From the NCBI GenBank assembly GCA_017469545.1, contig JAFUGE010000005.1, positions 1-64,000 on the forward strand: a stretch of 64,000 bases of DNA, given 5' to 3'. The position numbers and the translations under genes were made by a program. Source of the DNA: Clostridia bacterium. Its GTDB lineage: Bacteria > Bacillota > Clostridia > TANB77 > UBA1234. The notes under the pieces were generated by a model, which worked only from the letters and a program-made list of their open reading frames with translations, made no database searches and was not told the origin of the DNA. How positions within the stretch are numbered: the first letter of the stretch is position 1; each line of letters begins with the position of its first letter. Of this stretch, positions 29,259-60,708 are shown piece after piece.

Positions 29259-29717
29259 TTAATAAATTTTTAGATACCTTGCCTTCTCGTATGAATACGT
29301 GCGAAGTGGTCTATCTTTGGAGTCTACTGTGTGCGCACAAATCAATATTTCGTCTCCCTGTATTTCCGTCACGATAAGGCAATGGCCATATATTCCGCTT
29401 CCAAAGCTAAGTTGGATAACGTCGCCAATTTCCAATTCTTCTCTTGCAATTTCGCGTCCTCGTGGGCCCTCGTACTGATTGGCAATCAAAAATTCGTACA
29501 AGTATTTTACCCCCGTCCAAGACGGCGATTTTCGATTGGCGTTTTCGTAATACCAGCCATACTCCCTGTAATTCATTTGTGGGATTCCGGCATACAGGCA
29601 TTGTGAGACAAAGTTGGTGCAGTCCCCGCCTAAATAATCATAGTTGTAATAGGCAGGATTTCTGGAAAGTGCCCACTTTCTGGCATATGAAACTGCCGCT
29701 TCTCTGTTATATCGCAT
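29259..29717 (-). CDS. Amidase_6 domain protein (Cys-His peptidase type)
   Basis: A 152-residue protein consisting only of an Amidase_6 (PF12671-like) domain. The start MRYNREAAVSYARKWAL and GGDCTNFVSQCLYAGIP carry the catalytic Cys (about residue 33), and GHCLIVTEIQGDEI supplies the His (about 111). The fold is NlpC/P60-like, and these enzymes cleave amide bonds, often in cell-wall peptides. No signal peptide is present, so either it acts inside the cell or leaves by another route. ATG follows GGATGGGTGATATTTT. It is alone, between the tRNA operon and a DUF1858 gene. Confidence 0.88.
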   Translation of the reverse strand: MRYNREAAVSYARKWALSRNPAYYNYDYLGGDCTNFVSQCLYAGIPQMNYREYGWYYENANRKSPSWTGVKYLYEFLIANQYEGPRGREIAREELEIGDVIQLSFGSGIYGHCLIVTEIQGDEILICAHTVDSKDRPLRTYSYEKARYLKIY

Positions 29718-30065: not shown

Positions 30066-30093
30066 TAGACAAATCAAAAATCGATGTTATAAT
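30066..30093 (+). promoter_or_regulatory. Promoter of the VirD4-VirB2-VirB6-VirB3 operon
   Basis: TAGACA (30066-30071) and TATAAT (30088-30093) with a 16-bp spacer, 22 bp before the first start codon. Confidence 0.75.
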
Positions 30094-30115: not shown

Positions 30116-30352
30116 ATGAAATTGTCACGATACTACCTTTTCTTAATTTTGGTTTTGCCTATGATATCTATTATTTTGAATTCTGTATTAACAATTCCCA
30201 CATTAACGAAAATATTCTTTTACTCATTACTTGCTCATACAGTAATTGCTTTATATACGATATATTCGCTTTATGAAATAAGCGTGCTTCACGAAAAGCA
30301 AGGCTCGAAGCTAACCCTAAGTAAAGGTAAAATTACATCCGATTGGAGATGA
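30116..30352 (+). CDS. Small two-helix membrane protein opening the T4SS-like operon
   Basis: ATG follows AAAGGTGGTGATAAA. The 78-residue product has two hydrophobic helices (YYLFLILVLPMISIILNSV and IFFYSLLAHTVIALYTIYSL) and a short basic tail. Its stop overlaps the start of the VirD4-like gene (ATGA), so the two are translated together. This is the position in which a small membrane partner of the coupling protein could be expected, but I know no family for it. Confidence 0.75.
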   Translation: MKLSRYYLFLILVLPMISIILNSVLTIPTLTKIFFYSLLAHTVIALYTIYSLYEISVLHEKQGSKLTLSKGKITSDWR

Positions 30353-32034
30353 TAACCATCAAAATTCCAAAAGTATTATACTACAAGATTCCATTTATTG
30401 CAATAACTGTTGTTGTAGTCTTACTCTTCCAGCTAATTACATTTTCAAAACTATATCGACTACAAGAAATCTCATTTCAGTTCTTGGATAAGCCAATGAC
30501 AGTAGAGGCCTGGCTATGGTCCTACATAAAAAGCTTTTATCTATTAACAGTTATTATTTCTTGGATTTTTATTTCTTATACTTTCCATAAAAATTTCCCC
30601 ATTCCACAAGACAAAAAAATCGAGAAACAAAGCGAAGAGGGCATTCATTTAAACATTGGTACGAATATGTCTACGAATCTTCCCGTCATCATTCCCGAAA
30701 AAGGGCTTTACCAGAACATCTTTATTACTGGCACGATTGGGACAGGCAAAACCTCGTCGGCGATGTATCCCTTTGTCAATCAGCTATTAAAGCAAAACTT
30801 AGGAATGCTAATTCTCGATGTCAAAGGTAATTTTTATTCGAAAGTATTAGAACTAAATCAAATTTATCATAGGAATGTCATTGTATTAGAGCTAAACGGC
30901 AAATACACTTACAATCCTTTAGATAAACCAAATCTTAAGCCATCTATTTTGGCTAATCGCCTTAGAACCATACTTACATTATTCTCTAACCAACAAGTGA
31001 CAGACACTTATTGGCTAGACAAAGTCGAAAGCTTTCTGACGGAGTGTATCAAGCTCTGCAGGCTTTACAATGATAATTATGTGACATTCATTGAACTGCA
31101 TAAGTTAATTAATTCTCCCTCCTATCTTCAAGAAAAGTTTTCCATTGTAAAGCAAAATTTCTTATCAAATCTGTATAACACCCAACAGATTCACGATTTG
31201 AATTCTTGCTTGGACTTTTTTCAAAATGAATATAAGACGCTCGACCCCAAAGTGCTGTCTATTATTCAATCTGAAGTTACCCGAATCACTCAATTATTCG
31301 TGAACGACTATGAAATAAGTACTGCCTTTTGTCCCCCAAAAGATCAAATCAGTTTTAAAGGATTTGAGGGATTAGGAAACGATATTGTGGTTCTCAATAT
31401 GAATGTAGCTCAGTACAGAAATCTGGCGAAAGTTATCGCTACATATCTGAAGCTGGATTTCCAATCTGAGGTTTTAATGCGATTAGCCGATTCTCATAAA
31501 ATTTATCCTGTGGCATTTTTGTGTGACGAATATCACGAATATGCTACGGAAAATGACGCGAATTTCTTTTCTCAAAGTCGTGAGGCCCAATGTATTAATA
31601 TTGTCTCAACGCAAAGTTATACATCGCTTCTGAATGCTGTGAAAAACGAGGCCGCCGCGAAAGTCATTATCCAAAGTCTTGTAAACAAGATTTGGTTTCG
31701 CGCCGACGATATTTATACAATTGAAGAGGCTCAGAAACAGCTTGGGAAAGAAGATAAAGTGAAAATTTCTCGTAGCCTTTCCGAAAATGCCAAGGAAACA
31801 AAATACAATTATATTTTAAAAACGTTTAAGTCGGACAACTCTAGTTTGTCTGAAAGTATTAGTACACAAATTCAGCACGATTTTATCTACGATTTCAACA
31901 CATTTTCCAGGGAGTTAAAAACTTTTGAGGCCATCTGTTTTATTTCTACTGGTTCTGAGATTTTATCTCCGCAAATCGTTAGATTAAATCCGATTCACGC
32001 AAATACACCCATTATGAAAGGAAGATTTATATGA
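30349..32034 (+). CDS. VirD4/TraG-type coupling ATPase
   Basis: I choose ATG 30349 (overlapping the previous stop) over an in-frame TTG six bases earlier. The 561-residue protein has two N-terminal helices (about 8-28 and 55-80), then an ATPase core with Walker A GTIGTGKTSSA (near 128-138), LGMLILDVKGNF, and Walker B VAFLCDEYHEYA with STQSYTS after it. This is the layout of type IV coupling proteins, which pass DNA or protein substrates to the secretion channel. The usual all-alpha domain is replaced by a mid-length insert (residues about 210-300). No relaxase or oriT is near. Confidence 0.9.
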   Translation: MITIKIPKVLYYKIPFIAITVVVVLLFQLITFSKLYRLQEISFQFLDKPMTVEAWLWSYIKSFYLLTVIISWIFISYTFHKNFPIPQDKKIEKQSEEGIHLNIGTNMSTNLPVIIPEKGLYQNIFITGTIGTGKTSSAMYPFVNQLLKQNLGMLILDVKGNFYSKVLELNQIYHRNVIVLELNGKYTYNPLDKPNLKPSILANRLRTILTLFSNQQVTDTYWLDKVESFLTECIKLCRLYNDNYVTFIELHKLINSPSYLQEKFSIVKQNFLSNLYNTQQIHDLNSCLDFFQNEYKTLDPKVLSIIQSEVTRITQLFVNDYEISTAFCPPKDQISFKGFEGLGNDIVVLNMNVAQYRNLAKVIATYLKLDFQSEVLMRLADSHKIYPVAFLCDEYHEYATENDANFFSQSREAQCINIVSTQSYTSLLNAVKNEAAAKVIIQSLVNKIWFRADDIYTIEEAQKQLGKEDKVKISRSLSENAKETKYNYILKTFKSDNSSLSESISTQIQHDFIYDFNTFSRELKTFEAICFISTGSEILSPQIVRLNPIHANTPIMKGRFI

Positions 32035-32348
32035 TTAAAAAAATAGTTATTTTTTCGTTTGTTTTTATGATGTTACTTTCCAGTGTGGCCTTTTGTGCCA
32101 GTGACCCAAAATTAGTGACAACCATCAATAACGGCCTTACCAAGATCAAAGGATGGATTGTAAAGATTTCCACTCCTGCTGCTGCCGTTGCCATTGGTAC
32201 AGGCGTTTTAATGAAGAAGTTTAGCTTTGGCGACGAAGAGAGAATTGTCACAGGAAAAAAATTAATTAAAAGTACGCTCTTTTCTTATGCCTTTATTCTT
32301 AGCGTCGACTTAATTTTAACGGCTATTTCTACACTAGCAAAAGGGTAG
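32031..32348 (+). CDS. VirB2/TrbC-like pilin subunit
   Basis: A 105-residue protein with a signal peptide (IVIFSFVFMMLLSSVAFCAS) and two further hydrophobic helices joined by a short basic loop (ISTPAAAVAIGTGVLMKKFS, then the end helix SYAFILSVDLILTAIS). The pattern of cleaved leader plus two short helices fits VirB2/TrbC pilins. Its start overlaps the VirD4 gene by four bases (ATGA). Confidence 0.75.
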   Translation: MIKKIVIFSFVFMMLLSSVAFCASDPKLVTTINNGLTKIKGWIVKISTPAAAVAIGTGVLMKKFSFGDEERIVTGKKLIKSTLFSYAFILSVDLILTAISTLAKG

Positions 32349-32358
32349 GTGTTTTTAG

Positions 32359-33258
32359 ATGGAAGAAGAAATCGCTATCCAAGAGATAGATATCGGAAGT
32401 GTCATTATCGACACCATCAATAACTTATGCCAAAGCCTTTTCTCGTCCATTAATAAAGATATTTTTCCACTACTTGACAAAGTGGTGTTTATTAAAAAGG
32501 ATATTGCGACGAGTCATTTAGAGCGCATTCTTGGCACAGACCCTAAAACAGGGCTATTGGTGCTGGCAAACGCTTTGCTGGCAGCCTTTGTTATCTACTA
32601 TAGTGTTAGGCTATTTATGAGTAGCTATTCTGGCGAGGGAGTAGAGTCGCCACATAAATTCTTCTTAAGGCTATTTCTTGTTGCGATTTTTATGAATTTT
32701 TCTCTGACTATTTGCACGTATATCATTGGCGCAACTTCTGACATCACAACGTTTATCTGCTCCTTAGGGAAAAATATATTTGGAAAAGGTGTGGAAGTTT
32801 CTTTTTCAAGTTTAATGGATACTTTCGCTTTTCAAGCGGGCGATAAAGTCAATGTTTTTTCCCTTAATGGAATTTTATCTGGAATGCTCTCTATCTCCTC
32901 CTTTACCCTGATTGTCAGCTTTGCGCTAAGGTATATTGTGATTAAAGTGCTCATTTTACTATCCCCTTTTGCTATTTTATGCTTAATTAATCAGCCGACG
33001 ACGGGCCTTTTTAAAAGTTGGTTCAAATGCTTTTTGTCGCTCCTTCTTTTGCAGATATTTATTTCTTTGGTTTTGCTACTATCTTACGCTATTATCAAAG
33101 AGACAAATGTCAGTCCATTTAGGGAATTGCTGCTAGTTGGCACGATTATGGCACTACTGAAATCAAACGAATATGTCAGAGAATTGATGGGAGGCCTGAA
33201 TATCACGTCCAACTTTAGCACAGGAATGGCCGGCCTAAAATCTATGTTTACGAGGTAA
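32359..33258 (+). CDS. VirB6/TrbL-like polytopic channel protein
   Basis: A 299-residue protein with an N-terminal amphipathic region and several helices (LLVLANALLAAFVIYYSVRL, FLRLFLVAIFMNFSLTICTY, FTLIVSFALRYIVIKVLILL and others). It keeps a central polar stretch (residues about 125-170), typical of VirB6/TrbL inner-membrane channel proteins. GTAGGTGTTTTTAG precedes ATG. It sits between the VirB2- and VirB3-like genes, the normal neighbourhood for this subunit. Confidence 0.75.
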   Translation: MEEEIAIQEIDIGSVIIDTINNLCQSLFSSINKDIFPLLDKVVFIKKDIATSHLERILGTDPKTGLLVLANALLAAFVIYYSVRLFMSSYSGEGVESPHKFFLRLFLVAIFMNFSLTICTYIIGATSDITTFICSLGKNIFGKGVEVSFSSLMDTFAFQAGDKVNVFSLNGILSGMLSISSFTLIVSFALRYIVIKVLILLSPFAILCLINQPTTGLFKSWFKCFLSLLLLQIFISLVLLLSYAIIKETNVSPFRELLLVGTIMALLKSNEYVRELMGGLNITSNFSTGMAGLKSMFTR

Positions 33259-33261
33259 TCT

Positions 33262-33552
33262 ATGAAAAAATACATTTTCCCAACGAATTACAAATACGCT
33301 AATAAATTTCTCGGCATCATTGAATACCGAGTACTATTGCCTCTTTCGATTTATGCTGGCATTATCTTTTTAGTGCTATATTTATGCAAAGTCAGTTTTT
33401 TCTGGGGCACCGGAATTTTTATCGTGCTCGTCCTGCCACCCGTGATTCTGCTAGGAGTTGGCGTCGGCGGCGAGAGCGTAGTGCCATTTTTAATGAGCAT
33501 TTATAAGTTCAAGAAAAACGCAAAGGTCTATTTATATAATCGAAGAAAATAA
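33262..33552 (+). CDS. VirB3/PrgI-like membrane protein
   Basis: A 96-residue protein: short polar N-terminus (FPTNYKYANKFLGIIEYR), two close hydrophobic helices (about 27-47 and 52-73), then a basic tail (FKKNAKVYLYNRRK). This is the VirB3/PrgI pattern. In conjugation systems VirB3 is encoded next to or fused with VirB4. Here the VirB4 genes are 12-14 kb away in a different operon. Follows the VirB6-like gene by 3 nt. Confidence 0.8.
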   Translation: MKKYIFPTNYKYANKFLGIIEYRVLLPLSIYAGIIFLVLYLCKVSFFWGTGIFIVLVLPPVILLGVGVGGESVVPFLMSIYKFKKNAKVYLYNRRK

Positions 33553-33582: not shown

Positions 33583-33701
33583 CCACAAAAGAATTTCAAA
33601 ATTGAAAATTTATAAAAAATCCATTGCAAAATCCTCCAAAAAAATATATGATTTATGGTACAGAAAACAATCTATCAAAAATGGCAAATGGAGGGCTAAA
33701 A

Positions 33702-34676
33702 ATGACTTTTGAACAAAATTTATCAATGCTTTTTTCCGATTTAAACATTCCAGAAGTATTCATTAGTGAATATATGTGTAACGCCAATGGCGATTATGTA
33801 AAAATATATTTATACTGCCTATTTTTGTGCAAATATGGCAGTGAAGTCTCTCCACTTGACTTATCCAAGAGGCTTTGTCTTCCACTTAAAACCGTGGAAC
33901 AAGGCTTAAAATACTGGGAAGAAAACCATGTTCTTGTAAAGCAGCAATCTACTTACACTTTGGCAGACTTAAAGAAAGTAGAAGTAGAAAAGCTTTACAA
34001 GCCAAAGCTTACGTCTTCTGTTGAAGATGCGATCGAAGCAAATACCAAAAATGTAATGCGCAACCAAATTATCAATACCATCAACAATACCTTTTTCCAG
34101 GGCGTTATGTCTCCTGCTTGGTATACCGATATTGATAATCTGTTTACGAAATATCAGTTTGACGAGCACGTGATGTACTCTCTTTTCAAATATTGCTTCG
34201 ACCGTCAAGCACTTCACAAAAAGTATTTGTATGCTGTTGCAGAGGGCTGGGCTTCCAATAATATCAAAACGGCGGACGACTTAGACAAGTATTATACAGA
34301 ATATGAAAAAGTATCTCAAATCAAGAAAACAATTGGCAAAAAATTGGGCTTAAGTAGAAAGCTTTCTCAATACGAAGACTCGTATGTCGACAAATGGGTA
34401 ATCGAATATGGCTATCCGATGGAGGCTATTGAGCTTGCACTAAAGAAGACGACTTCGAAAACAAATCCAAGCTTTGATTACATTGACAAAATTATTACCA
34501 ATTGGCACGAAAGAAATCTATCTACTGTGGACGATATCAGTGCTTTCTTGAAGGAGCAAAAACAAAAGCAAAAAGAAATCAAAGTAATGGAAACCGGAAA
34601 ACCAAGTATTCCAAAATATTCTGACACGCAAACGAATCAGTACAACGATTTGACTAAGTTCTACGCGAATGTATAG
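33702..34676 (+). CDS. DnaD-domain replication protein
   Basis: Start ATG 33702 follows AAATGGAGGGCTAAAA; codons further upstream have no ribosome site. The 324-residue protein has an N-terminal winged helix (residues about 10-95, with LDLSKRLCLPLKTVEQGLKY) and two C-terminal DnaD/DnaB_2 domains. The last has the YxxxIxxxW signature as FDYIDKIITNWHERN. DnaD-like proteins help load the replicative helicase in Bacillota. It directly precedes the dnaI-like gene, the usual pair. Confidence 0.88.
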   Translation: MTFEQNLSMLFSDLNIPEVFISEYMCNANGDYVKIYLYCLFLCKYGSEVSPLDLSKRLCLPLKTVEQGLKYWEENHVLVKQQSTYTLADLKKVEVEKLYKPKLTSSVEDAIEANTKNVMRNQIINTINNTFFQGVMSPAWYTDIDNLFTKYQFDEHVMYSLFKYCFDRQALHKKYLYAVAEGWASNNIKTADDLDKYYTEYEKVSQIKKTIGKKLGLSRKLSQYEDSYVDKWVIEYGYPMEAIELALKKTTSKTNPSFDYIDKIITNWHERNLSTVDDISAFLKEQKQKQKEIKVMETGKPSIPKYSDTQTNQYNDLTKFYANV

Positions 34677-34691: not shown

Positions 34692-35687
34692 ATGTTTTCA
34701 GACGTATACAAAACCATAGAACGCAAATATGAAGACAAAAGAAATCTTGCTTTTAGAAACTACGCCATCGCCAAAGAAAAGGCTTACGCCAAAAATCCTA
34801 GGCTTGCAGAAATCGACAAGGAAATCACGATGCTAGGCATCAAAAGTTCCAAGGCTGCACTAACGACTAATAGCGCTGCGCTAGCTACTCTAAAAGAAGA
34901 ATTAGAAATTAATATTAATTTGTTAAAGCAGGAAAAAGAGGCCATTTTAAGCGCTATGAATACTACGTTAGAAGTTGCGTATCAATGCGAAAAATGCAAA
35001 GACACAGGCTATATCCTTACGGAGACAGGCAGTGAAATGTGTAGCTGCTTAAAGCAAGAGCTTTTAAACGAATCTTATAACAAATCCAATTTGTTTAGGC
35101 TTAAAAATGATACTTTCGAGAAATTTAACCTAACTCTTTTTTCCGACGAGGCAAATCTTGAAAAATATGGTGTTAGTATTTCTCCTAGACAAAATATGGA
35201 AAAAATCTATCAATTGTCAATGGAGTTTATCCAAAACTTTGAAAGTCCAGAACAGAAAAATCTGCTATTTACTGGCACTCCAGGCATTGGAAAAACATTT
35301 CTATCTAGTTGTATTGCAAATGCTGTTTTAGAAAAAGGCTATACTGTGCTATACCAAACCTCTCCGCTGCTATTCGACTTGATTTTTGAAAATAAGTACG
35401 GTAATAATAAATCCGTTGGCTCTAAAGAGTTTTACGACAGTATTTTAAGTGCCAATTTGCTAGTCATTGACGATCTTGGTACTGAAAACTTAACAGCAGC
35501 AAGATTTTCCGAGTTGTTTAATTTATTAAACGCCAGATTGTTAAAACCTGATGTCAAAACAATTATTTCAACGAATTTATCTCTTGAAGATTTGGCTAAG
35601 ACGTATGACGACCGAATTTTGTCACGTCTCATTGGCAATTATAACATCTGCCGCTTCTTCGGCGAAGACATACGATTAAAAAAGTAA
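34692..35687 (+). CDS. dnaI: DnaC/DnaI-type helicase loader ATPase
   Basis: A 331-residue AAA+ protein. Residues about 75-125 carry a zinc site (CEKCKDTGYI, then CSCLKQ). The ATPase core has Walker A GTPGIGKTF (near 194-202), Walker B LLVIDDLGTE and sensor STNLSLEDL. This is the DnaI helicase loader, or a DnaC-like relative, which places the replicative helicase on DNA with DnaD. The N-terminal 75 residues form a coiled coil rather than the standard DnaI N-domain. ATG follows GAAAGGTGTTTTTAAT, 15 nt after the DnaD gene. Confidence 0.9.
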   Translation: MFSDVYKTIERKYEDKRNLAFRNYAIAKEKAYAKNPRLAEIDKEITMLGIKSSKAALTTNSAALATLKEELEININLLKQEKEAILSAMNTTLEVAYQCEKCKDTGYILTETGSEMCSCLKQELLNESYNKSNLFRLKNDTFEKFNLTLFSDEANLEKYGVSISPRQNMEKIYQLSMEFIQNFESPEQKNLLFTGTPGIGKTFLSSCIANAVLEKGYTVLYQTSPLLFDLIFENKYGNNKSVGSKEFYDSILSANLLVIDDLGTENLTAARFSELFNLLNARLLKPDVKTIISTNLSLEDLAKTYDDRILSRLIGNYNICRFFGEDIRLKK

Positions 35688-35691
35688 AAAT

Positions 35692-35720
35692 GCTGGCGTC
35701 TTATGGGCGCCAGTTTTTTA
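35692..35720 (+). terminator. Terminator after dnaI
   Basis: CTGGCGTC pairs with GGCGCCAG (one G-T pair) and is followed by TTTTTTATC. Confidence 0.88.
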
Positions 35721-40952: not shown

Positions 40953-41651
40953 TTATGCCATTTTTTCACAGACTTCTTGTTCGACGGGAGTTAGTTCAAT
41001 CACGCCTTTGTTTTTCATTAGCTCATACTGGTTGACGGTGCTTCTTGCTCTATTAATCGTGTTTTCAATGAGCATTACTTTATCCAAATCTGTTTTAATC
41101 GATTTAATTTGTTTTGCCATTTCTTTTTCGTCGTTTTTGCTGCGTGCTTCGTCAAATTTATCGCATTTTTTGTCGAGTCTATCTATCGTGTTCTTTTGTT
41201 TTACCATAACATCTTTTAACGCACTGTCTAAGCTATCTCCTAGTAATAAATCTTTACTTGATTTGATTAATTTTCTGGCGTCTGCCGGAATAACTTTGAT
41301 AAAATCAATGCCAATATCAATCGCAGCAGAAAGCCCTTTTTTCAAATCACCTGCCCTAAGTGCCTCCAAGATTTGCTTGGCGCTGTTAAATGTTGAATTG
41401 TTTAATCCAATGGCTTTCGCGCCTATTCTTAATGCCGCTTCCACGGCCTGAGCTCCCGCGGTTTTTAGTTCTCCTTTCCTTGCCTCTGATTTGATTAGGC
41501 TTTTGTACTCGTCCGCAATGTCTACTTGTTCAATTCCTTTGTCAACAGCATTGGAAAATGCGTTTGACACCTCCGTGACAATATTTTGGTTCTCCTTTGT
41601 CATTTCTAATTCTAGACCCTTGTCTAGTTCCAATGTTAATGCTTGTTCCAT
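40953..41651 (-). CDS. Unknown helical protein downstream of the Tad operon
   Basis: A 232-residue soluble, almost wholly helical protein; ATG follows AAAGGAGGAAAATTT. The N-terminal half contains small-residue-rich amphipathic helices (TAGAQAVEAALRIGAKAIGL and LKKGLSAAIDIGIDFIKVIP) and the C-terminal half a charged coiled coil (about 150-205). No motif recognised. It is transcribed in the same direction as the Tad genes but separated from them by a 206-bp repeat region. Confidence 0.65.
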   Translation of the reverse strand: MEQALTLELDKGLELEMTKENQNIVTEVSNAFSNAVDKGIEQVDIADEYKSLIKSEARKGELKTAGAQAVEAALRIGAKAIGLNNSTFNSAKQILEALRAGDLKKGLSAAIDIGIDFIKVIPADARKLIKSSKDLLLGDSLDSALKDVMVKQKNTIDRLDKKCDKFDEARSKNDEKEMAKQIKSIKTDLDKVMLIENTINRARSTVNQYELMKNKGVIELTPVEQEVCEKMA

Positions 41652-41705: not shown

Positions 41706-41884
41706 TCAATAATCCATTTTTTCACGTGATGCAATTGTAGGGGGCGCGTAGCACGCGATCCGCAAAATTTCCCATTTTTGTTCAATAATCCATTTTTTCA
41801 CGTGGTACGATTGTAGGGGGCGCGTAGCACGCGACCCGCAAAAAATTCCCATTTTATTCAATAATCTAATTTTTTCACGTGGTG
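41706..41884. repeat. Tandem 76-bp repeats that include the end of the tadB gene
   Basis: Two near-identical 76-bp units (41706-41781 and 41782-41857) are followed by the first part of a third unit (41858-41884), which is the last codons and stop of the TadB gene. Each unit carries TCAATAATC, TTTTTTCACGTG and a hairpin (GTAGGGGGCGCGTAGCACGCG). So the 3' end of the gene plus a repeat-bearing spacer has been copied twice in tandem. In these units the hairpin faces the other way from most copies. Confidence 0.9.
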
Positions 41885-42790
41885 TGAGAGCAACAATAAA
41901 AGCCACATACTGATAAAATTCCAATACAAAATCACTGTGCCAACGAAGCTGTTTTTCATAATCCTATAATTTTCATAGCTACTATTGATAAACGTAAAAT
42001 ACACAAACAAGTCCAGTGCAATCAAAATAAGTAGCACCAGTCTTGCGCCTCGCGTCTCCTGCATTCTTGCCGCTTTTTCTTTTTGCATTTCGTCAATCGT
42101 CTCGTAATTTTTGCGAATTAGCTCACTAAAATTACCGCCATACAAATAGCAATACTGTATATGATTTAACAAATCCAAAAAGCTTTTGATATGAATTTTT
42201 TCTTTCAAATGCTCCATCGCAATTTCAAACTTAATACCACGATTAATCTCTAGCAAAAACTTATCAATGTAGGATTGCAGTGGCTCAATCACTTTCACTT
42301 CCTGAAATGCATAAATAATATCATTATTAATCCTGGTATAATTCTTTAGCTGTAGCAAAAAGTTCAGCAGCACTTTTTCAATCTTCTGCTCCTTGTAACT
42401 AGCAATACTGGAAAGAATCACTATCGGCAAAATGAGCGCTGGCAAGGAGATAATGAATGATAAAAGCGGAATCTCAAAGATGTTTTTGATTATCATATAT
42501 ACGCCCACAAAGCTAAGCACGCACGAAAGTAGTATCGTAATGGGATTAATGAGTATGTTCCTGCTTAGCGAAGCCCTATCAATCAAGATATTGATTTTAT
42601 GGAAAACATTTAGTTTTGTATTCAGTTTTACTTTCTTGTTTTTCTCGTAATAACGAAGTAGCTCTGCGTAATACTCGTCATTTTTTACCATAATGTAGTT
42701 GTTGATTTTAGAGAAAAATTTTTTGTCCACGATACGCTTGGCAAGTTCATACGATAACAATCCAACAGCTAAAAACAAAATTACATTCAC
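41858..42790 (-). CDS. tadB: TadB-like type II secretion F-domain membrane protein
   Basis: I choose GTG 42790 (after GAGAGGTG), overlapping the TadA stop by four bases (GTGA). The 310-residue protein has an N-terminal helix, two helices near residues 80-125 (ILLSCVLSFVGVYMIIKNIF and ISLPALILPIVILSSIASYK), and a cytosolic F-domain with AFQEVKVIEPLQSYIDKFLLE. Two C-terminal helices follow. TadB and TadC form the platform in the inner membrane on which the TadA motor acts. The last gene of the VirB4-TadZ-TadA-TadB operon. Confidence 0.85.
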   Translation of the reverse strand: MNVILFLAVGLLSYELAKRIVDKKFFSKINNYIMVKNDEYYAELLRYYEKNKKVKLNTKLNVFHKINILIDRASLSRNILINPITILLSCVLSFVGVYMIIKNIFEIPLLSFIISLPALILPIVILSSIASYKEQKIEKVLLNFLLQLKNYTRINNDIIYAFQEVKVIEPLQSYIDKFLLEINRGIKFEIAMEHLKEKIHIKSFLDLLNHIQYCYLYGGNFSELIRKNYETIDEMQKEKAARMQETRGARLVLLILIALDLFVYFTFINSSYENYRIMKNSFVGTVILYWNFISMWLLLLLSHHVKKLDY

Positions 42791-44073
42791 GCAAAACACC
42801 TCTCTATCTCTTCTCGATGAATCTCAATTTTTCTCTTGACGGTTCCGATAGGCTCATTGATTTTTCTGAATTTTCCAATCGATTTTCCGTTTTCGATTTT
42901 CTCTACATCAAATGCAAAAAGAGGATTGTACTCGATTTTCTCTGTCTCTTTGTTGTATATCACTTCCGCAATCTCTTGCACTTTAAAATTGCTCATATAA
43001 ATGACTAAATCTAGTGAACTAGATAATAGCTTCGTCAAATACTCGTTGCTATACATCTGCGCTTTGGTATCTCTTTTCATAAGGGTGACGAGTCTATCTA
43101 CTGTGCTCTCGCTGCTATCTGCGTGTACAGTGGCATACCCTCTATGTCCTGTCGAAACAGCATCAAAGAAAACCATTGCCTCAGCGCCTTTTAATTCGCC
43201 AATGACAATCACATCATTCGACATGACAAGGGAATGGGCCGTTAGCATTGCAAGCGTGATATTCTTATTCTCTGCCCTGTTGCTCAAAATTTCTCTTTGA
43301 ATCAAATTCGGATGGGTGCTATATAGCTCCGCCGTCTCCTCGTTGGCGGTAATGGATAAATCCTCTGGAATTTTATTAATGAGGGTCCTCATAAGCGTTG
43401 TCTTCCCGCTTCCGCCTTTGCCACTAATCACGATATTGCATCCTGCAATCATTGCCTGTACTAGAAATTGGTAGATATCTACGTTAATCATTTCGGCCGA
43501 ACTCATTAATAGTTCCTCGATGCTTTGTATCCCGTTTGGCCTATGGATACGAATGACTAAATTGGGATTGTTCACGTTTACCGGCTCAATGCCCGCTTCA
43601 ATTCTTAAGTTGTTTTTCCTATCACTCACAATCACAATCGGCACTTCATTAGAAATTTTGCCCCTATTTTTTAGCACACAATAGCGCACAAAATTCAAAT
43701 AATCATTCTCGTCCTCAAAGCTCTCATTCGTTCTTTGCCACCTGCCATTTTTCTTAATAAAAATGCAGTTATACTTGGTCACTCTTATATCACTCACCGC
43801 AATATCGTCGATATATTTTTGCAAAATGTGATACCCAAAAAGTCTGTTAATGATGGCATTGATTGTCGGCTCTGTATTCATATTCGAGTACTCTTTGTAC
43901 ACTTTTTCGCGCACGATATTTTCTACCATTTCTTTATTCATATCAATATCACTTAAGTATTCCGAGTAGTTACGAATTAAGTATCCAATGATGTCGCTAA
44001 TGACTTTATCTTTATTAACTTCTTGCTTGTCTTGCTTTTCTTCTGCCTTTGTTTTTAATGGATTAATTAGCAT
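42787..44073 (-). CDS. tadA: TadA/CpaF-family secretion ATPase
   Basis: A 428-residue cytoplasmic motor. Residues 1-120 form the N-terminal domain; Walker A GKGGSGKTTL lies near 219-228, followed by the Asp-box region (EETAELY), Walker B VIVIGELKGAEA (Glu in place) and the His-box GYATVHADS. The layout is that of CpaF/TadA ATPases of Tad pili, related to VirB11. ATG follows GGAGGTGCCAA and the start overlaps the TadZ gene by 11 bases. It would drive assembly or retraction of the pilus. Confidence 0.93.
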   Translation of the reverse strand: MLINPLKTKAEEKQDKQEVNKDKVISDIIGYLIRNYSEYLSDIDMNKEMVENIVREKVYKEYSNMNTEPTINAIINRLFGYHILQKYIDDIAVSDIRVTKYNCIFIKKNGRWQRTNESFEDENDYLNFVRYCVLKNRGKISNEVPIVIVSDRKNNLRIEAGIEPVNVNNPNLVIRIHRPNGIQSIEELLMSSAEMINVDIYQFLVQAMIAGCNIVISGKGGSGKTTLMRTLINKIPEDLSITANEETAELYSTHPNLIQREILSNRAENKNITLAMLTAHSLVMSNDVIVIGELKGAEAMVFFDAVSTGHRGYATVHADSSESTVDRLVTLMKRDTKAQMYSNEYLTKLLSSSLDLVIYMSNFKVQEIAEVIYNKETEKIEYNPLFAFDVEKIENGKSIGKFRKINEPIGTVKRKIEIHREEIERCFA

Positions 44074-45322
44074 TTGGCACCTCCTTTAACACAGCATTTT
44101 CTTTGCCTACCTTATTCTTAATTAGGCCCCTAATCATTTCGATTTTTTCGGCAAAAGATTGCTTTGGAATGAAGTGAATATTGGCAAGAATTCTTTCATA
44201 CTCCGCGTCGTCATTGTTTTTGATCACGCCCGCCAACTTCATATTTTCCAATATTTTTTCTATTAGCTCCACTTCGATTCCGTTTGCTTCGCTCTTTCTC
44301 ACAACCAGCTGAATTTTTTCTTTCCACACGCGCCAAACGTTTAAGAAAACATTCAGCAACTGCGTGGATTTCTTGAGACAAATGTAGGAATTTTCTGTCA
44401 CAAATAATACACGGTTTGCCTCTTGCAATGCCCATTTCGTCGAATCCAAGAAAATATTACTGCTCGTATCGAAAATGATAAAATCATATTTTTCTTTGGC
44501 GGCGCTTAAAATTTTCTGATAATACTCTTCTTTTAAAACATTCTGGCAGTAGTGAAGTGAGACATTGCCGGTTAATACATCCACCCCTTTTTCAGATACC
44601 ACAAGCTCGTCTAGCACATTGGTATCAAAACGATTTTTCGCAATCAAGTCTACCGCATAATTTAGTCCACATTTTTTATCCTCGTCCATTAACAAATCCA
44701 CATTTTGTGGAACTTTGTTAATATGCATGATTTCGTCGATGTTTCCATTTAACGTATCCAAATCTATGAGCAAAATTTTCGCATCACTTTTTTGTGATAA
44801 TTTCTTTGCTAAATTCACGGCAAACGTAGACTTGCCAGAGCCATTCGTGCCAGAAATAGCAATCACTTCCTGCTTTTGCACTTTCGTGATGTACGACACT
44901 TTTATCTCAGACTCTGCTTTATCATAGCTATTGTCCACCGTCTCACGCACTAATTGCCTGGCAATCGGTTCCTCTCTGTCAATCGCATCAATTACATCCG
45001 AAATCTCCACATCGCAATCATACAAAATATCATACACACCCATATTCGCAAGCAATCGTTGCGTCTCGGTATCCATTTCGTCCGTAATCACAATGATTCT
45101 CGCCACACTATTTTTCCTTTTTATTCTTCCAATGAAATCGCAAAAATCGTCCTGCCCTTGTAGTAAACCACTCACCACAATCGCATCCACGCTTTCCTCT
45201 TCCAATACATCTACTACAGCATCTTGGTAAAACAAATCCTCCTCTATCACATCGTATTTTTCATATCTTCTTAATTCGTTGTTTAGCGCTGGATTCCCCA
45301 AAGCTGTTAAAACCCTCTTCAT
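44063..45322 (-). CDS. tadZ: TadZ/CpaE-like ATPase with receiver-like N-domain
   Basis: A 419-residue protein. Residues 1-125 resemble a response-regulator receiver (DAIVVSGLLQGQDD, IIVITDEMDTETQRLLANMG). Residues 150-400 form a MinD/ParA-type P-loop ATPase: SGTNGSGKSTFAVNLAKKL has the P-loop with an Asn-Gly start rather than the ParA KGGVGKT signature Lys. ILLIDLDTLNGNIDEIM and DFIIFDTSS complete it. TadZ places the pilus machinery at its cellular site. GAGGGGGAAGATATAA precedes ATG. The VirB4 stop codon adjoins its start. Confidence 0.9.
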   Translation of the reverse strand: MKRVLTALGNPALNNELRRYEKYDVIEEDLFYQDAVVDVLEEESVDAIVVSGLLQGQDDFCDFIGRIKRKNSVARIIVITDEMDTETQRLLANMGVYDILYDCDVEISDVIDAIDREEPIARQLVRETVDNSYDKAESEIKVSYITKVQKQEVIAISGTNGSGKSTFAVNLAKKLSQKSDAKILLIDLDTLNGNIDEIMHINKVPQNVDLLMDEDKKCGLNYAVDLIAKNRFDTNVLDELVVSEKGVDVLTGNVSLHYCQNVLKEEYYQKILSAAKEKYDFIIFDTSSNIFLDSTKWALQEANRVLFVTENSYICLKKSTQLLNVFLNVWRVWKEKIQLVVRKSEANGIEVELIEKILENMKLAGVIKNNDDAEYERILANIHFIPKQSFAEKIEMIRGLIKNKVGKENAVLKEVPNAN

Positions 45323-47161
45323 TTATATCTTCCCCCTCATTTCCAAATCTTTTCGATCTGTCGTTATAATGTCGTGCTCCTTTTTCGAAGCCTCCACTTT
45401 TACCATTAAATGGCTCTTATCTGCGTGTAGCAAACACGTCCCTCTCTCCATGTTTTTGAGTCTGTAGCATTCTTCTTCCGATAGCGACGCAATTTCTTTC
45501 ATGCTATTGATGGCATTTTGTTCTATTTGAAACATACACTTAATGCTGGAATTATTCATAATGCCTTTGCCAAATTTTCCATCTTGCAAACTTAGAAAAT
45601 CATTCACGTCTTGCGTAATGGCCGTTGCAGCCCCACCATATTTTCTAATCGTTTTAAATATTTTAAAAACAAAATTTGCCGTCTCCTCGTTATTGGCAAT
45701 CAGCCTCCACGCCTCGTCGAAATACAAAATCTTTTTCTGCGCCCTCTCTTCTTTAATCTTATCCCAGAAAAAGTCTGTCACCACAAACATCACTGGCGCC
45801 AAGGCATTTTCTTCGATGTCATAAATATCCGCAATCACCAGCTTGTTCGACAAATCCACATTCGTATGTTGGTTTAAAAATTTCAAGCTTCCACTTAACA
45901 TTGGCTTTAGTAATGCGGCCAAGCGTTTCGCCTTTTTATCTTTTTTCAAAATCGCATACAAATCAGAAATAGTTGGCATTTCACTACTATCCCTAAATTT
46001 TCTCTTTTCTAAAAAACTGCCATTGTCACTCCCGACAAACAAAGAGTTGTCGTCGAACGTAATCCCCTTTTCGGCGTAGCACTCCACAATTTTTTCTTCT
46101 AATAATGCTTCCTCTTCTACAGACATATCGCCAAGCAGCATTTGAAAGAAAATCTTTAGCTTGCCCAGCTTGTTTCTCAAATAGCCCATACTGGCCGTGT
46201 CGTCGTTACTCGATTTTCGAATATCCATGATATTAATACTATTTTCGCCGCCAAATTGAATGAGTGTTCCGCCTAGCTTCTCGCAAAGGCCTACATACTC
46301 ACGGTCTGGGTCAATAATATATTGGTTAATATTCAAATATCGATTTCTCGCAATCATGAGTTTCACAAAATATGATTTGCCAGAGCCGCTCGTCCCTAAA
46401 ATGCACATATTCGCATTGCGATACTTTTCCGTCTCAAAACGGTCCACCATTACAAGCGAATGATTGGAATCATTAATGCCAATGACTACACCATTTTCGT
46501 CACACAGCTCATTCGAAATAAACGGATACGTACTCACCAAGCCACTTGTCAAAACATTTCTTGCCGTCACTTCTTTTAAGTCCTTATGATTTTGCATTAG
46601 CGGCATCGCCGACAAAAACGCCTGCTCCTCGCGAAAGGCCGCTCTTCTTGAAGTCAGGCCAATTCCCGCCAACACTCCTTCTAGCTTTTGTAAATCAAAC
46701 TCTAACTCTTCTTTGGAATTCGCATACACGACAATGTATGTATAGAGATAATAAAATTCCTCGCCACCAAGCTGCAACTGCTTTCTAATATACTTCGCGT
46801 CTTGATAACTACTCCCCATCACATCAATATCTGTCTGATTTTCATTTGTCACTCGCATATTCGCGCCCGTATTTCCAATGTTGTACGTTAACTCTTTAAT
46901 GACCTCATAACTGTTCTTCTTCTCGTAAAACATGGAAATCTGCAAATCTAAATCAAGCGACACGCATGTCTTTAGAAAAGCATCGTGCATTTCTTTGCTG
47001 TAATCTACTACTAGCAGCGCACTTGCAAAATAATCGTCTATCGCAATATACTTTGGATTAGTCATATCAAGATAAGATGGGCAAATAGAATCCAAAACGG
47101 TATTTTTCCCACCACTGATAATAGAAATATCCTCCTGTCTTTTGCTAGAAATAAAGCTCAT
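45323..47161 (-). CDS. VirB4-type ATPase, C-terminal (motor) part
   Basis: A 612-residue protein beginning with the middle domain of VirB4/TraE (PSYLDMTNPKYIAIDDYFAS, GNTGANMRVTNENQTDIDVM). The ATPase core follows, with Walker A GTSGSGKSYFVKLM (near residue 253), the DPDREY motif after it, Walker B KKILYFDEAWRLI (near 450) and ITQDVNDFL. The N-terminal domain is encoded by the overlapping gene before it (ATGA overlap at 47158-47161). VirB4 powers type IV secretion; here it is read with tadZ, tadA and tadB as one operon. Confidence 0.93.
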   Translation of the reverse strand: MSFISSKRQEDISIISGGKNTVLDSICPSYLDMTNPKYIAIDDYFASALLVVDYSKEMHDAFLKTCVSLDLDLQISMFYEKKNSYEVIKELTYNIGNTGANMRVTNENQTDIDVMGSSYQDAKYIRKQLQLGGEEFYYLYTYIVVYANSKEELEFDLQKLEGVLAGIGLTSRRAAFREEQAFLSAMPLMQNHKDLKEVTARNVLTSGLVSTYPFISNELCDENGVVIGINDSNHSLVMVDRFETEKYRNANMCILGTSGSGKSYFVKLMIARNRYLNINQYIIDPDREYVGLCEKLGGTLIQFGGENSINIMDIRKSSNDDTASMGYLRNKLGKLKIFFQMLLGDMSVEEEALLEEKIVECYAEKGITFDDNSLFVGSDNGSFLEKRKFRDSSEMPTISDLYAILKKDKKAKRLAALLKPMLSGSLKFLNQHTNVDLSNKLVIADIYDIEENALAPVMFVVTDFFWDKIKEERAQKKILYFDEAWRLIANNEETANFVFKIFKTIRKYGGAATAITQDVNDFLSLQDGKFGKGIMNNSSIKCMFQIEQNAINSMKEIASLSEEECYRLKNMERGTCLLHADKSHLMVKVEASKKEHDIITTDRKDLEMRGKI

Positions 47162-47688
47162 ATCTTTATCCTTTCTAGCCCCCTAAGTCTCCTATTGAAA
47201 CAATTCTTCATAATGAAAATAATTTTATCTGTCGTACATTCCTGTACAAAGTTACCACAGGCCGCAAGCCCCTCTCGCACTTTCGAAACATTCTCTTCTA
47301 TATGATTGTCACCCTTAATAACAAGATAGAATTTACGTGAAACATTTCTCTTCGAAGAAGTAACTTCTTGCACAAAACGAATATAATCTTCTGCCATTTC
47401 CTTTAAGCAATCTTCCTCTTCTCTAAGCCTCTTCACCCTTAAGAAGTGCTTAGAAACATCTGTAATTTGAGACTGCATAACAATTTGCATATCAAAATTA
47501 CAAGACTTCAAAAAGCGCTTATAGCTCTCTAAAATCGCCTCTCGCTCAAACTCGGATTTTAGTTCAAAATTAATCGGCTCCACTTCCAAAATTTTTAAAA
47601 AAGTCCCATCTTTCATAAATACTTTGTTCTGCCCAATATCTTGAAACGGCATCCAGTCTTGCACAGAAAAGGCCTCTTGTTTTTTCAT
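47158..47688 (-). CDS. VirB4 N-terminal domain as a separate protein
   Basis: The most likely start is ATG 47688 (MKKQEAF), although AAGGTGGTG lies about 16 nt before it, a long spacing; the reading frame is open upstream to 47739. The 176-residue product has FQDIGQNKVFMKDGTFLKIL, EVEPINFELKSEFEREAIL and a strand-helix pattern typical of the first domain of VirB4/TraE proteins (CagE_TrbE_VirB N-part). It ends in a four-base overlap with the motor gene, so the two halves are made side by side. Confidence 0.75.
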   Translation of the reverse strand: MKKQEAFSVQDWMPFQDIGQNKVFMKDGTFLKILEVEPINFELKSEFEREAILESYKRFLKSCNFDMQIVMQSQITDVSKHFLRVKRLREEEDCLKEMAEDYIRFVQEVTSSKRNVSRKFYLVIKGDNHIEENVSKVREGLAACGNFVQECTTDKIIFIMKNCFNRRLRGLERIKI

Positions 47689-47742
47689 ATTAATTATTTT
47701 TATCACCACCTTTTTCGCCATTACGAATTGTATTAACATCTT

Positions 47743-50291: not shown

Positions 50292-50308
50292 ACTCGTTCT
50301 CCTCACTA

Positions 50309-58053: not shown

Positions 58054-58443
58054 TTAACGTTTGCTCACAGAGACTCGATTGATTTCCATTGGTACGATTT
58101 GCTCTTCCAAAAATGGAAGCTGCAATCGATAATCATAGGCAACATTTAGATAAATTTGATTTCCATAGGGCTGCACGCTGGACGTGCAGTCTACTTGAAT
58201 CTTTTCTTTTTCAAACCCCTGCTTTGCTAGCTCCGTAATCAAATTCTGCTTTTCCTTTTTCGTCAGATAACCATACTCCTCCATCACAAAAACATATTTG
58301 ATGCAAGTGCTTGATAATTTTTCATACCAAATATACGGCACCAAAATTTTAACAGCAAGCACAATGAGTGCCGCCACAAGCATCATTCCAATCGCAATAA
58401 TGACCGGTGTGGTTATGATAGAGCTTCCTTTTTCACTTTTCAT
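58054..58443 (-). CDS. TadE/G-like pseudopilin-type protein (short)
   Basis: A 129-residue protein; ATG follows AAAGGAGGCAACA. It begins KSEKGSSIITTPVIIAIGMM, a basic leader followed by a long hydrophobic helix, with Gly-Ser-Ser near the cleavage point, then an outside alpha/beta domain with two Cys-bearing segments (SSTCIKYVFVMEEYGYLTKK and VDCTSSVQPYGNQIYLNVAY). This fits TadE-like minor pilins. Last gene of the 58-64 kb Tad operon. Confidence 0.7.
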   Translation of the reverse strand: MKSEKGSSIITTPVIIAIGMMLVAALIVLAVKILVPYIWYEKLSSTCIKYVFVMEEYGYLTKKEKQNLITELAKQGFEKEKIQVDCTSSVQPYGNQIYLNVAYDYRLQLPFLEEQIVPMEINRVSVSKR

Positions 58444-58456
58444 TGTTGCCTCCTTT

Positions 58457-58942
58457 TTATTGTTTTAACATATTCAAATTCACATCTTCATGTATCTGAA
58501 ACTCAAATATTTTTTCTAAAAAATCACGCAAAATAATTGGCTTTATTTTTACTTTGAGCGTCATATGCAGTACGGTGTCGTCCGTTTTTTCCTTGGTAAA
58601 TGCATCTTTCTGGCCCTTGGTATAAATCTTGCATTCCTCAAGTGTCACTTTCGAAATTAATTTATCACGATTGGATAAATTCTCGTCCAAATCATAACTT
58701 GCTCTTAAGTTTTTCTCCAGTTCCTTCTGATATGTTTTCGCATCATAGCTAAAATTCCCCGTATTGGCTTTGTTTTTATTCACAGCAATGATGCCACTTT
58801 TCGCAATCGAATACACATCCAGTTTAAAATTGTATAATACGTTATTGACGTGTGACATAAAAATCGCTGCCACAAAAATTAAAATTGTTAAAAAGGTAGC
58901 AACAAAGATACTGAAAATAATTAATACATTTCCTTTTTCCAT
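58457..58942 (-). CDS. TadE/TadG-like minor pilin
   Basis: A 161-residue protein: MEKGNVLIIFSIFVATFLTI is a Gly-preceded hydrophobic helix like that of TadE/TadG, followed by an exposed domain (FKLDVYSIAKSGIIAVNKNK, VTLEECKIYTKGQKDAF and LKVKIKPIILRDFLEKIFEF). The first 30 residues include no Glu5. ATG follows AGGAAAATCGAAA. It is separated by 13 nt from the previous gene, so cotranscription is nearly certain. Confidence 0.72.
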   Translation of the reverse strand: MEKGNVLIIFSIFVATFLTILIFVAAIFMSHVNNVLYNFKLDVYSIAKSGIIAVNKNKANTGNFSYDAKTYQKELEKNLRASYDLDENLSNRDKLISKVTLEECKIYTKGQKDAFTKEKTDDTVLHMTLKVKIKPIILRDFLEKIFEFQIHEDVNLNMLKQ

Positions 58943-58955
58943 TTTCGATTTTCCT

Positions 58956-60611
58956 TTATTTGATATATGGCGTTAAGTCTCTGTTGTATAACGTATCCCA
59001 TCTCTCAAAAACATCTAGCGATACACTCTTCGTGCGCACGCCCTCACTTGAATATGCCTTGATTACGACGCCATACGGATTCGTTTTTCTCGTAAACAAT
59101 TGGCTCTCGTCAATACTAAAAGCGTCCCTGGAAATTTCGCGAAGGCTGCTCCACGAATGAAATGTCTGCTTTGTTTTGTATGGAATGACGTAGTAATATT
59201 TGAAATAAGATTTTTCCTCTCGCGTCTTATAAGGATTGATTCTTACTTTTTGTTGATATGCTGCCTTCAATTTTGCTAAACTTGTATATCTTGTACTAAC
59301 ACCTCTACTTCTTGGATCTGTCCACTCAAATTTCTCTGTTAAATCGTCTAGTGTCACAATCGAAGCATCCCCTGAAAATTCTAACGTAATGTAATCTGCA
59401 TTGCTCGTCTCCACTTCGATTGCCAGTACTTGTCCCGCGCAGATAAATGCGGAATTCGTTTTCCTCACGATTTTCAGCGGAACGATCTTGCCATTCTCCT
59501 GCCTTCCCAAATCAATGCTATCAATATGTGGCGGAATGGCATCCATTTCATAATTTCTATTTTCTCTTTTCACTTCTAGCTTGTTTTCTTCGCTTTCTTC
59601 TATGCCTTCGACTTTAATGTGAATGATTTTTGTATTTGTATCTACCAGCGCACCATCCACGGTAAATTCCGTCAGTAATAACGAATTGCAAGAGACTTCT
59701 AATTCGATATTCGCCTGGTTTGGATAATCACTTTTACGAACCACGATATAACTTTGCTTCGAAACAGAAAGTGCTTTTGCCGCCTCTACGGAGTCTACTT
59801 GACTATCGTTTACTTCCACTTCTGCATAAATTCTTTTCACATGCTCCGCTTTGGCAAAATCCGTAAGATTGACTACCTCCGTTCCATACTCCACAGGAAT
59901 TAAAATGCTCTCTTCGTCTTCTGCGATAGTGTATGCTTCTCCCTCTGGAAAATAAAGTTTAGCCGACAATGCCGCATCTGCCGCCATCGGTGGTACAATA
60001 AAATTCGCTGCCCACTCTTGATTGTTCCTGTCATATCTTCTCGTATAAATATTGCCATTCGTTTTCCATGTAGCATAATTTTCTATTTTCGCTTTATCAA
60101 ATCCAATATCCGCAGCCGTCAAATCATACACAATCTGATTACGGGTAAGTTTTGCCGTCTGCATATAAATCTTTTGCTCTTCATAACGATACATTTGTAC
60201 GTCATTCCAGGAATCCTCTGCCTCTGCTAGTGGAACATATCTCCACTCCGTTGGCGGTGTTGGTGGCTCTATATCTACTGGAAATTGGTGATTATGAATA
60301 AATTCACCTGAAACGTTGTAGCCTAAAACCCAGTATTCTCCGCGGGTTCCAGTTCCCTGCCAAATGCCACCATTCTTTGTCCATTTGCCATCAGATACAT
60401 CCTTCCATCTTTGCGTAGACGGAATCATTAATGGACTTCCATAAACAAATTGGTTGTATGCTTGATATATTTCTTCATTTAACACATATCCACCTTTGCC
60501 TGATTTTTCGATTCCCATCACGTCAACCATGTATTCAAAGCTTTTCGAATAAGCAAAAACGATACTATTTACTCCTAATAAAATCATTATTAAAAAAATA
60601 AATTTCTTCAT
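58956..60611 (-). CDS. Large exported protein in the Tad operon
   Basis: A 551-residue protein with a signal peptide (FIFLIMILLGVNSIVFAYS). It has a repeat-like N-terminal part (WRYVPLAEAEDSWNDVQMYR and similar) and beta-rich domains, with many aromatic and charged residues in between. It contains no membrane helix after the signal peptide, so it is exported. I cannot place it in a family; a pilus-associated adhesin or assembly factor is likely from context. ATG follows AAGGAGGACAA. Confidence 0.7.
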   Translation of the reverse strand: MKKFIFLIMILLGVNSIVFAYSKSFEYMVDVMGIEKSGKGGYVLNEEIYQAYNQFVYGSPLMIPSTQRWKDVSDGKWTKNGGIWQGTGTRGEYWVLGYNVSGEFIHNHQFPVDIEPPTPPTEWRYVPLAEAEDSWNDVQMYRYEEQKIYMQTAKLTRNQIVYDLTAADIGFDKAKIENYATWKTNGNIYTRRYDRNNQEWAANFIVPPMAADAALSAKLYFPEGEAYTIAEDEESILIPVEYGTEVVNLTDFAKAEHVKRIYAEVEVNDSQVDSVEAAKALSVSKQSYIVVRKSDYPNQANIELEVSCNSLLLTEFTVDGALVDTNTKIIHIKVEGIEESEENKLEVKRENRNYEMDAIPPHIDSIDLGRQENGKIVPLKIVRKTNSAFICAGQVLAIEVETSNADYITLEFSGDASIVTLDDLTEKFEWTDPRSRGVSTRYTSLAKLKAAYQQKVRINPYKTREEKSYFKYYYVIPYKTKQTFHSWSSLREISRDAFSIDESQLFTRKTNPYGVVIKAYSSEGVRTKSVSLDVFERWDTLYNRDLTPYIK

Positions 60612-60632
60612 TTGTCCTCCTTAGGGGGCTAT

Positions 60633-60662
60633 ATAGAGGGAGATTAAGGGCTCTCCCTCTAT
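60633..60662 (-). other. Intercistronic hairpin
   Basis: ATAGAGGGAGA pairs with TCTCCCTCTAT around TTAAGGGC. Without a T-run on the minus strand it may be a processing site or stabiliser. It partly overlaps the leader of the 58956-60611 gene. Confidence 0.6.
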
Positions 60663-60678
60663 GTAGTTGTATTATTGG

Positions 60679-60700
60679 TTGAAGGTTTTTAAGCCTTCAA
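60679..60700 (-). other. Second intercistronic hairpin
   Basis: TTGAAGG pairs with CCTTCAA around TTTTTAAG, a few bases after the SLH-gene stop codon. Like the neighbouring hairpin it has no proper T-run on the minus strand. Confidence 0.55.
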
Positions 60701-60708
60701 AATTGAAA

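Follow-up and report, generated by a model that had tools for sequence, protein, structure and literature searches.

The 64,000-nucleotide window analysed here (positions 1 to 64,000 of contig JAFUGE010000005.1, from a Clostridia bacterium) carries two operons that very probably encode a chromosomally fixed, domesticated type IV secretion system (T4SS) of the monoderm conjugation kind, without a relaxase of its own. The best overall explanation, to which we give a probability of about 0.55, is that the two operons form one relaxase-free T4SS whose likeliest task is to move DNA between kin cells that touch. A first-pass annotation of this DNA had joined the two operons into one T4SS, a pairing supported by their gene content and by a VirB3 homologue that stands immediately 5' of the VirB4 genes in genomes G013 and G021. 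It had also proposed domestication, to be checked by conservation of both operons across the lineage. Both are conserved, with order-wide synteny at dnaD-dnaI and gyrA, and this, together with trees that follow the families and the absence of the two relaxase families tested, supports the proposal.

Gene content of the two operons

The operon at 30116-33552 consists of five genes on the same strand (orf78, VirD4, VirB2, VirB6 and VirB3) with short or overlapping gaps, and dnaD and then dnaI lie directly 3' of VirB3. The coupling ATPase, pilin, channel and VirB3-like genes all lie where the first-pass annotation had placed them, and dnaD-dnaI are indeed the next genes.

30066..30093, + strand: promoter-like site TAGACA-16-TATAAT with extended -10, 11/12 consensus matches, preceding orf78
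30116..30352, + strand: orf78, small membrane protein of 78 amino acids, first gene of the operon, recurring immediately 5' of VirD4
30343..32034, + strand: VirD4-type coupling ATPase, 563 amino acids, Walker A/B intact, with an all-alpha domain inserted
32031..32348, + strand: VirB2-like pilin, just under the PF18895 cut-off, with homologues across the order
32359..33258, + strand: VirB6/TrbL-like channel protein (PF04610)
33262..33552, + strand: VirB3/PrgI-like protein, assigned by family profile match and VirB4-adjacent homologues in G013 and G021
33669..34676, + strand: dnaD, context gene, probably on the same transcript
34692..35687, + strand: dnaI, context gene, assigned by IstB/DnaA-type AAA matches and its position after dnaD
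35692..35714, + strand: terminator-like hairpin 3' of dnaI, 10-bp stem with a T tail

VirD4 matches PF10412 (E=1e-10) and TraG-D_C (E=4e-5), both above cut-offs. Its predicted structure combines a pair of N-terminal helices with a P-loop domain and an inserted helical domain, and the C-terminal third is poorly modelled. Because the model aligns best to T4SS coupling ATPases, namely the DotL complex (6sz9; Z 20.4, 3.7 Å, 313 residues), Cag-beta and TrwB (Z 16.8), the gene product is a coupling ATPase of this class. By sequence it had no match in the PDB, so that only the fold search was informative. It also had no match to the CD1115 model, the type of coupling protein that accompanies a VirB4 of the same kind on a Vescimonas plasmid. 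No VirD4 relatives were found in viral contigs. The PADLOC matches of VirB4 and VirD4 were set aside as generic HerA-type ATPase matches.

The VirB2 pilin matches PF18895 at E=1e-5, and its 25.8 bits fall just below the cut-off of 26.6; its homologues are 39-72% identical across the order. VirB6 matches PF04610 at 29.4 bits, above the cut-off of 25.9. VirB3 has no usable match in Pfam or NCBIfam; hhalign pairs its family profile (86%, E=5e-6) with that of a PrgI-like family, one member of which hits PF12666 at 1.8e-4, below the cut-off. Weak matches to orf78 occur near VirD4 in G307 and G477. An Amidase_6 gene upstream of the operon (29259-29717) was considered as VirB1 and rejected, as relatives have no homologue of it beside the operon.

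The T4SS genes may be co-transcribed with dnaD-dnaI, since a site search of the region found no terminator-like site, and no promoter-like site, between VirB3 and dnaD. Promoter-like sites such as that at 30066..30093 show no excess over shuffled sequence in this region. A 24-nt palindromic repeat, TAGGGGCAGCGTATCACGCTGCCC, occurs in eight copies in the window (7601, 17084, 21200, 33558, 37992, 41679, 47745 and 57514) where zero are expected by chance. The copies are mostly intergenic, and one lies between VirB3 and dnaD.

The partner operon, near gyrA, runs from 47739 to 40953 on the minus strand and encodes a TrsD-like part, VirB4, a TadZ/ParA-like ATPase, TadA, TadB and orf232. A Tad operon with genes for CpaB, a Flp-like prepilin, TadC, pseudopilin-like proteins and an SLH-domain protein occupies 58054-64164. 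The Tad pilus set of TadA, TadB, TadC, TadZ, CpaB and Flp prepilin is all present, with Flp and TadC below Pfam cut-offs.

47158..47739, - strand: TrsD-like protein of 193 amino acids, the N-terminal part of VirB4 as its own gene (NF041427 TrsD, 8e-9; NF045971 model positions 2-133)
45323..47161, - strand: VirB4 ATPase, CD1110-like (NF045971)
44063..45322, - strand: TadZ/ParA-like ATPase, retained in many TadA-less genomes
42787..44073, - strand: TadA secretion ATPase, also VirB11-like, optional within the order
41858..42799, - strand: TadB-like platform protein (PF00482, 25.5 bits, above cut-off)
40953..41651, - strand: orf232, conserved soluble helical protein, predicted model with a pLDDT (predicted local distance difference test) of 85.6
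63325..64000, - strand: TadC-like protein, running to 64164 beyond the window (PF00482 below cut-off)
63093..63296, - strand: Flp-like prepilin (PF16982, 6e-5, below cut-off)
62295..63083, - strand: CpaB/RcpC (PF16976, 29.5 bits, above cut-off)
58956..62314, - strand: orf551, SLH-domain protein and 106-amino-acid protein of the Tad operon
58054..58942, - strand: two TadE/TadF-like pseudopilin genes, assigned by position

The best match of VirB4 is NF045971 (CD1110; E=2.9e-85), which covers nearly the whole protein at 287 bits against a curated cut-off of 325. Among plasmid VirB4 proteins, that of Vescimonas pMM35_02 ranks second as a match and first among those annotated. The AlphaFold model of orf232 is confident, yet it has no Foldseek match at E<0.001, and its VIA-align matches lie at the background for helical bundles.

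Just upstream of the VirB4 operon, at 47907-50306, the window encodes a 799-amino-acid protein in which a type IV prepilin-like N-terminus precedes cysteine-rich and repeat regions; it is possibly an adhesive pilin. A second T4SS-like cluster lies outside the window in the same genome (contig C3, 72000-108000). It encodes several VirB2-like pilins, one PrgI-like and one TrsD-like protein, a further VirB4 and a number of VirB6-like proteins of very large size; neither VirD4 nor a relaxase is seen in the stretch that was read. Full-length VirB4 of this second type occurs in at least 38 of 57 relatives, counted by eye.

Conservation and descent

The order of the relatives is probably GTDB TANB77, within which UBA1234 is named as a family (PMC12270094). 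Among 57 genomes of the order, 43 have a VirD4 relative, 49 have VirB6 and about 50 have VirB4 of this type; these presence sets were read from search tables, and the VirB4 count used context for two divergent cases. The 23 genomes examined in detail all have VirB6 and VirB3, with DnaD and DnaI in 22, VirD4 in 21 and VirB2 in 20. The gene order at dnaD is not due to chance, since 57 of 80 named loci hold the full VirD4-VirB2-VirB6-VirB3-DnaD set; many of the remaining loci are short contigs. All named loci come from uncultured metagenome-assembled genomes, mostly from animal guts.

The order next to dnaD persists in families f1, f3, f4 and f5, in nearly all sampled genomes, and VirD4 identity between families goes down to about 35-50%. 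In the VirD4 and VirB4 trees each of these four families forms one group, with the minimum possible number of changes over all groups, and in the VirB6 tree f1 alone is paraphyletic, at the base. VirD4, VirB2 and VirB6 are under purifying selection in the closest pairs; in the closest pair of all the ratio of nonsynonymous to synonymous substitution rates (dN/dS) is 0.10, 0.07 and 0.05, against 0.13 for DnaI in the same pair. Closest pairs alone were relied on, as saturation in AT-rich DNA inflates the medians over all pairs (0.30-0.49), and no such judgement is made for VirB3 and orf78, which are too short and too variable.

Relaxases of families PF03432 and PF02486 are absent genome-wide in this bacterium, in a search that did not extend to PF03389, PF01076 or TrwC-type relaxases (MOBQ, MOBV, MOBF). 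No relaxase or integrase was recognised among the open reading frames of the window, which were read by eye and scanned in part, integrases not being searched genome-wide. Direct repeats found in the window do not look att-like, and att sites, which were not formally tested, are unlikely because synteny is fixed across relatives.

An ordinary integrative conjugative element, or a remnant of one, would explain why the cassette order resembles conjugative clusters, and tRNA-Glu/Lys genes do lie 0.9 kb upstream of the operon. Mobile-looking or decayed relatives of the cassette also exist outside the order, in G307, where VirD4 is fused to M23 and VirB4 is a fragment, and in G442 and G477 beside parA/parB-like genes. 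This explanation was rejected as very unlikely, given the same place, the same neighbours and family-following descent across four families. The reading frames are intact, and the trees and fixed synteny are not the horizontal, patchy distribution expected of a conjugative element. The earlier annotation had held that absence from close relatives, or a relaxase and integrase in cis, would point to an integrative element; neither was found, the relaxase search covering PF03432 and PF02486 and the integrase search the window.

Relation to the Tad pilus

The first-pass annotation described a hybrid of T4SS and Tad. TadZ, TadA and TadB do stand in the VirB4 operon, and joint clusters exist in G442 and G206, but the Tad part is dispensable. 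TadA and TadC go together, each occurring in 26 genomes of which 25 are shared, and show no correlation with VirD4 or VirB6. VirD4, VirB6 and VirB4 are kept without TadA in 18 of the 57 genomes, all of which except G005 also have no TadC. Since the joint loss of TadA and TadC leaves these three T4SS genes in place, Tad is an optional and separable helper of the T4SS in this order. Tad genes and VirB4 are not adjacent in G013 and G021 (family f2); G017, from another family, has TadA-TadB-TadC and no VirB4 of this type.

TadZ behaves differently from the other Tad proteins. It is retained with VirB4 in many TadA-less genomes, usually with an intact P-loop, which suggests that it serves the T4SS. 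In G014 (L033) and G036 (L065), both without TadA, the TadZ P-loop is lost and VirB4 is kept.

A strict form of the hybrid idea, in which TadA is the VirB11 of an obligate T4SS-Tad machine, appears improbable. It would fit the arrangement of VirB4-TadZ-TadA-TadB in one operon, the clustering of T4SS and Tad genes in G442 and G206, and the better score of TadA (42787-44073) against the NCBIfam VirB11 model (150 bits) than against the TadA model (117 bits), both below cut-off. It is weakened by the paired loss of TadA and TadC, by the 18 genomes that do without TadA, and by G017.

Outside the order, G442 (L195/L197, contig C9), from another class of the phylum, has parB-VirD4-VirB2-VirB6-C39 peptidase-VirB3-VirB4-TadZ/ParA-TadA-TadB-TadC-pseudopilins-prepilin peptidase-SLH in one cluster, with small and divergent genes assigned by position. 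Only the T4SS half of such a cluster is seen in G477 (L194, contig C23). G206 (L199/L215, contig C7, 823000-852000) has a TcpA-type T4SS with a VirB8-like protein and an M23 peptidase, its T4SS parts named by reading the sequences, followed directly by TadZ-TadA-TadC-CpaB-SLH, and this cluster lies near a tyrosine integrase. The associations in G442 and G206 look independent, because similarity to the window genes is reversed between them: the G206 VirB4 is remote from the window VirB4 (56 bits) and its TadA scores highest of all single matches outside the order, and in G442 the reverse holds. VirB4, TcpC and tad genes are also found together on a plasmid of Cutibacterium acnes (PMC5696575). 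The T4SS-Tad partnership looks real and recurrent, which argues for cooperation of the Tad pilus and the T4SS in cell contact. Type IV pili play such a contact role for IncI plasmids and PAPI-1 (PMC12857230).

Known systems, proposed function and rival explanations

The nearest VirB4 relatives belong to the CD1110/Tn1549-type T4SS of Bacillota (MPF_FATA), which also has VirB3, VirB6 and pilin genes. Unlike that type, the system described here has no PF03432 or PF02486 relaxase and no linked cell-wall peptidase, its coupling protein is TrwB/DotL-like with no CD1115-model match, VirB3, the TrsD part and VirB4 are three genes, and it is chromosomal and vertically inherited.

The nearest analogues are the T4SS of Patescibacteria and the archaeal Ced/Ted systems, and relaxase-free chromosomal T4SS are already known from both. 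The former is a chromosomal, mostly relaxase-free monoderm system with separate TrsD, PrgI and VirB2-like pilins, near replication genes (PMC12102498). These traits are shared by the system described here, with its chromosomal location, absence of two relaxase families, separate TrsD, PrgI-like VirB3, pilin at 25.8 bits against a cut-off of 26.6, and replication genes alongside. The Patescibacteria system differs in that it belongs to another phylum, its coupling gene is rarely near virB4 and, as far as the available text goes, no Tad link is reported (PMC12102498). Ced/Ted are likewise domesticated VirB2-VirB6-VirB4 machineries fixed across orders with no relaxase known, with ParA/MinD-like ATPases at Ted loci and separate type IV pili (Ups) for contact; they are archaeal, their set names no VirD4, and Ced DNA import has been shown experimentally (PMC9905601).

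The combination of T4SS ATPases with a type IV or Tad pilus is shared with IncI R64/TP114, PAPI-1 (PMC12857230, PMC9045228) and the C. acnes tad plasmid (PMC5696575). Those elements are mobile, whereas the T4SS here is chromosomal and outlives loss of the pilus. The system resembles Tad/Flp pili in its TadZ, TadA, TadB, TadC, CpaB, Flp-like and pseudopilin-like genes, and differs from them in that TadZ and TadA-TadB stand in the VirB4 operon and TadZ outlasts TadA and TadB in many genomes. New here are the occurrence in Clostridia, the TrwB/DotL-like coupling protein, VirB3-TrsD-VirB4 as three genes, the two operons at dnaD and gyrA, and the optional Tad. Searches of the open-licence literature turned up no account of such a system in TANB77, and none of a domesticated T4SS spanning the Clostridia.

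In the proposed mechanism, VirB3, VirB6, VirB4 and the separate TrsD-like N-terminal part would make up the membrane translocon, with VirB4-VirB3-VirB6 energising and forming the channel and VirB2 providing a short pilus or channel lining. VirD4 would pass a cytoplasmic substrate into the translocon, the TadZ/ParA-like ATPase may position the machine or its substrate, and orf232 would be a cytosolic component specific to the lineage. In species with the Tad genes retained, the Tad pilus would draw cells together, the T4SS being independent of it. Kin cells in contact would then exchange chromosomal fragments, as archaeal Ced/Ted do with Ups pili. DNA is the favoured substrate, at slightly less than even odds, on account of the machine's conjugation ancestry, the Ced/Ted precedent with ParA-like ATPases and the weak evidence of replication-gene linkage. 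More tentatively, the order could hold a bacterial counterpart of Ced plus Ups, in which gut Clostridia exchange kin chromosomal DNA, Tad is an optional grappling device, and Bacillota have repeatedly paired Tad with T4SSs of unrelated types.

Several observations weigh against the best explanation. No VirB8 and no cell-wall hydrolase (VirB1) recurs beside either operon in the genomes compared. A few genomes (G022 and G032) retain VirD4-VirB6 without a VirB4 of this type. A separate ComEC, the usual channel for DNA uptake, is encoded in the genome, so that free DNA need not enter through the T4SS. The DNA-uptake role raised in the first-pass annotation is not borne out, given this ordinary ComEC and the usual retention of VirD4, an export-side coupling protein. 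Lastly, G037, G039, G041, G043 and G045, which form one clade in the VirB6 tree, have no VirD4. They keep VirB6 and VirB3, VirB2 in four of five, and mostly VirB4 and TadZ, so the rest of the machine is useful without the coupling protein, at least there. This loss fits a pilus or uptake role in that subclade, and T4SSs without VirD4 that make adhesive pili are known (PMC12857230).

The weight given to the possible jobs is a little under half for DNA, between a fifth and a quarter for protein, about a seventh for a pilus or adhesion alone, a tenth for other tasks and slightly less than that for help in trans to mobile elements. In the protein-delivery alternative, VirD4 recruits effectors or toxins for delivery to nearby bacteria or to the host. 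In fold, the VirD4 model comes nearest to the protein recruiters DotL and Cag-beta as well as to TrwB, neither tested relaxase family is present, and a protein-secreting T4SS has been reported in Streptococcus suis (PMC12857230). Such a role is nevertheless rather unlikely, since a fold match cannot separate DNA from protein coupling, one subclade lost VirD4 and retained the rest, and the recurring neighbour families, T4SS/Tad, housekeeping and regulatory genes aside, include no effector-immunity-like pair. A VirB2 pilus serving adhesion or contact alone, with no translocation in most species, would suit the well-conserved VirB2, the clade entirely without VirD4 and the known adhesive systems; retention of VirD4 under purifying selection in 43 of the 57 genomes makes this unlikely to a greater degree. 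A working T4SS with its coupling protein could also serve, in trans, the transfer of relaxase-bearing plasmids or mobilisable elements present from time to time, and other VirB4 types are scattered among the relatives. This is improbable, as the genome has no PF03432 or PF02486 relaxase and order-wide conservation requires a benefit to the host itself.

Known T4SS functions in Gram-positive bacteria are almost only conjugation by mobile elements, with Patescibacteria as the stated exception (PMC12857230, PMC12102498). Finding another chromosomally fixed T4SS that has no recognised relaxase shows that domestication extends beyond epibionts and archaea. The present case has a pilin and a coupling protein and is inherited across an order of common gut bacteria, and the natural loss of single modules (Tad, VirD4 or VirB4) offers a ready comparative experiment on the purpose of each part. 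If the T4SS does move DNA, genes would be exchanged in the gut by a route that has been overlooked.

Elsewhere in the window, at 27442-28164, an RNase H-like domain is fused to a RepL/Crp-type winged helix, an unusual combination.

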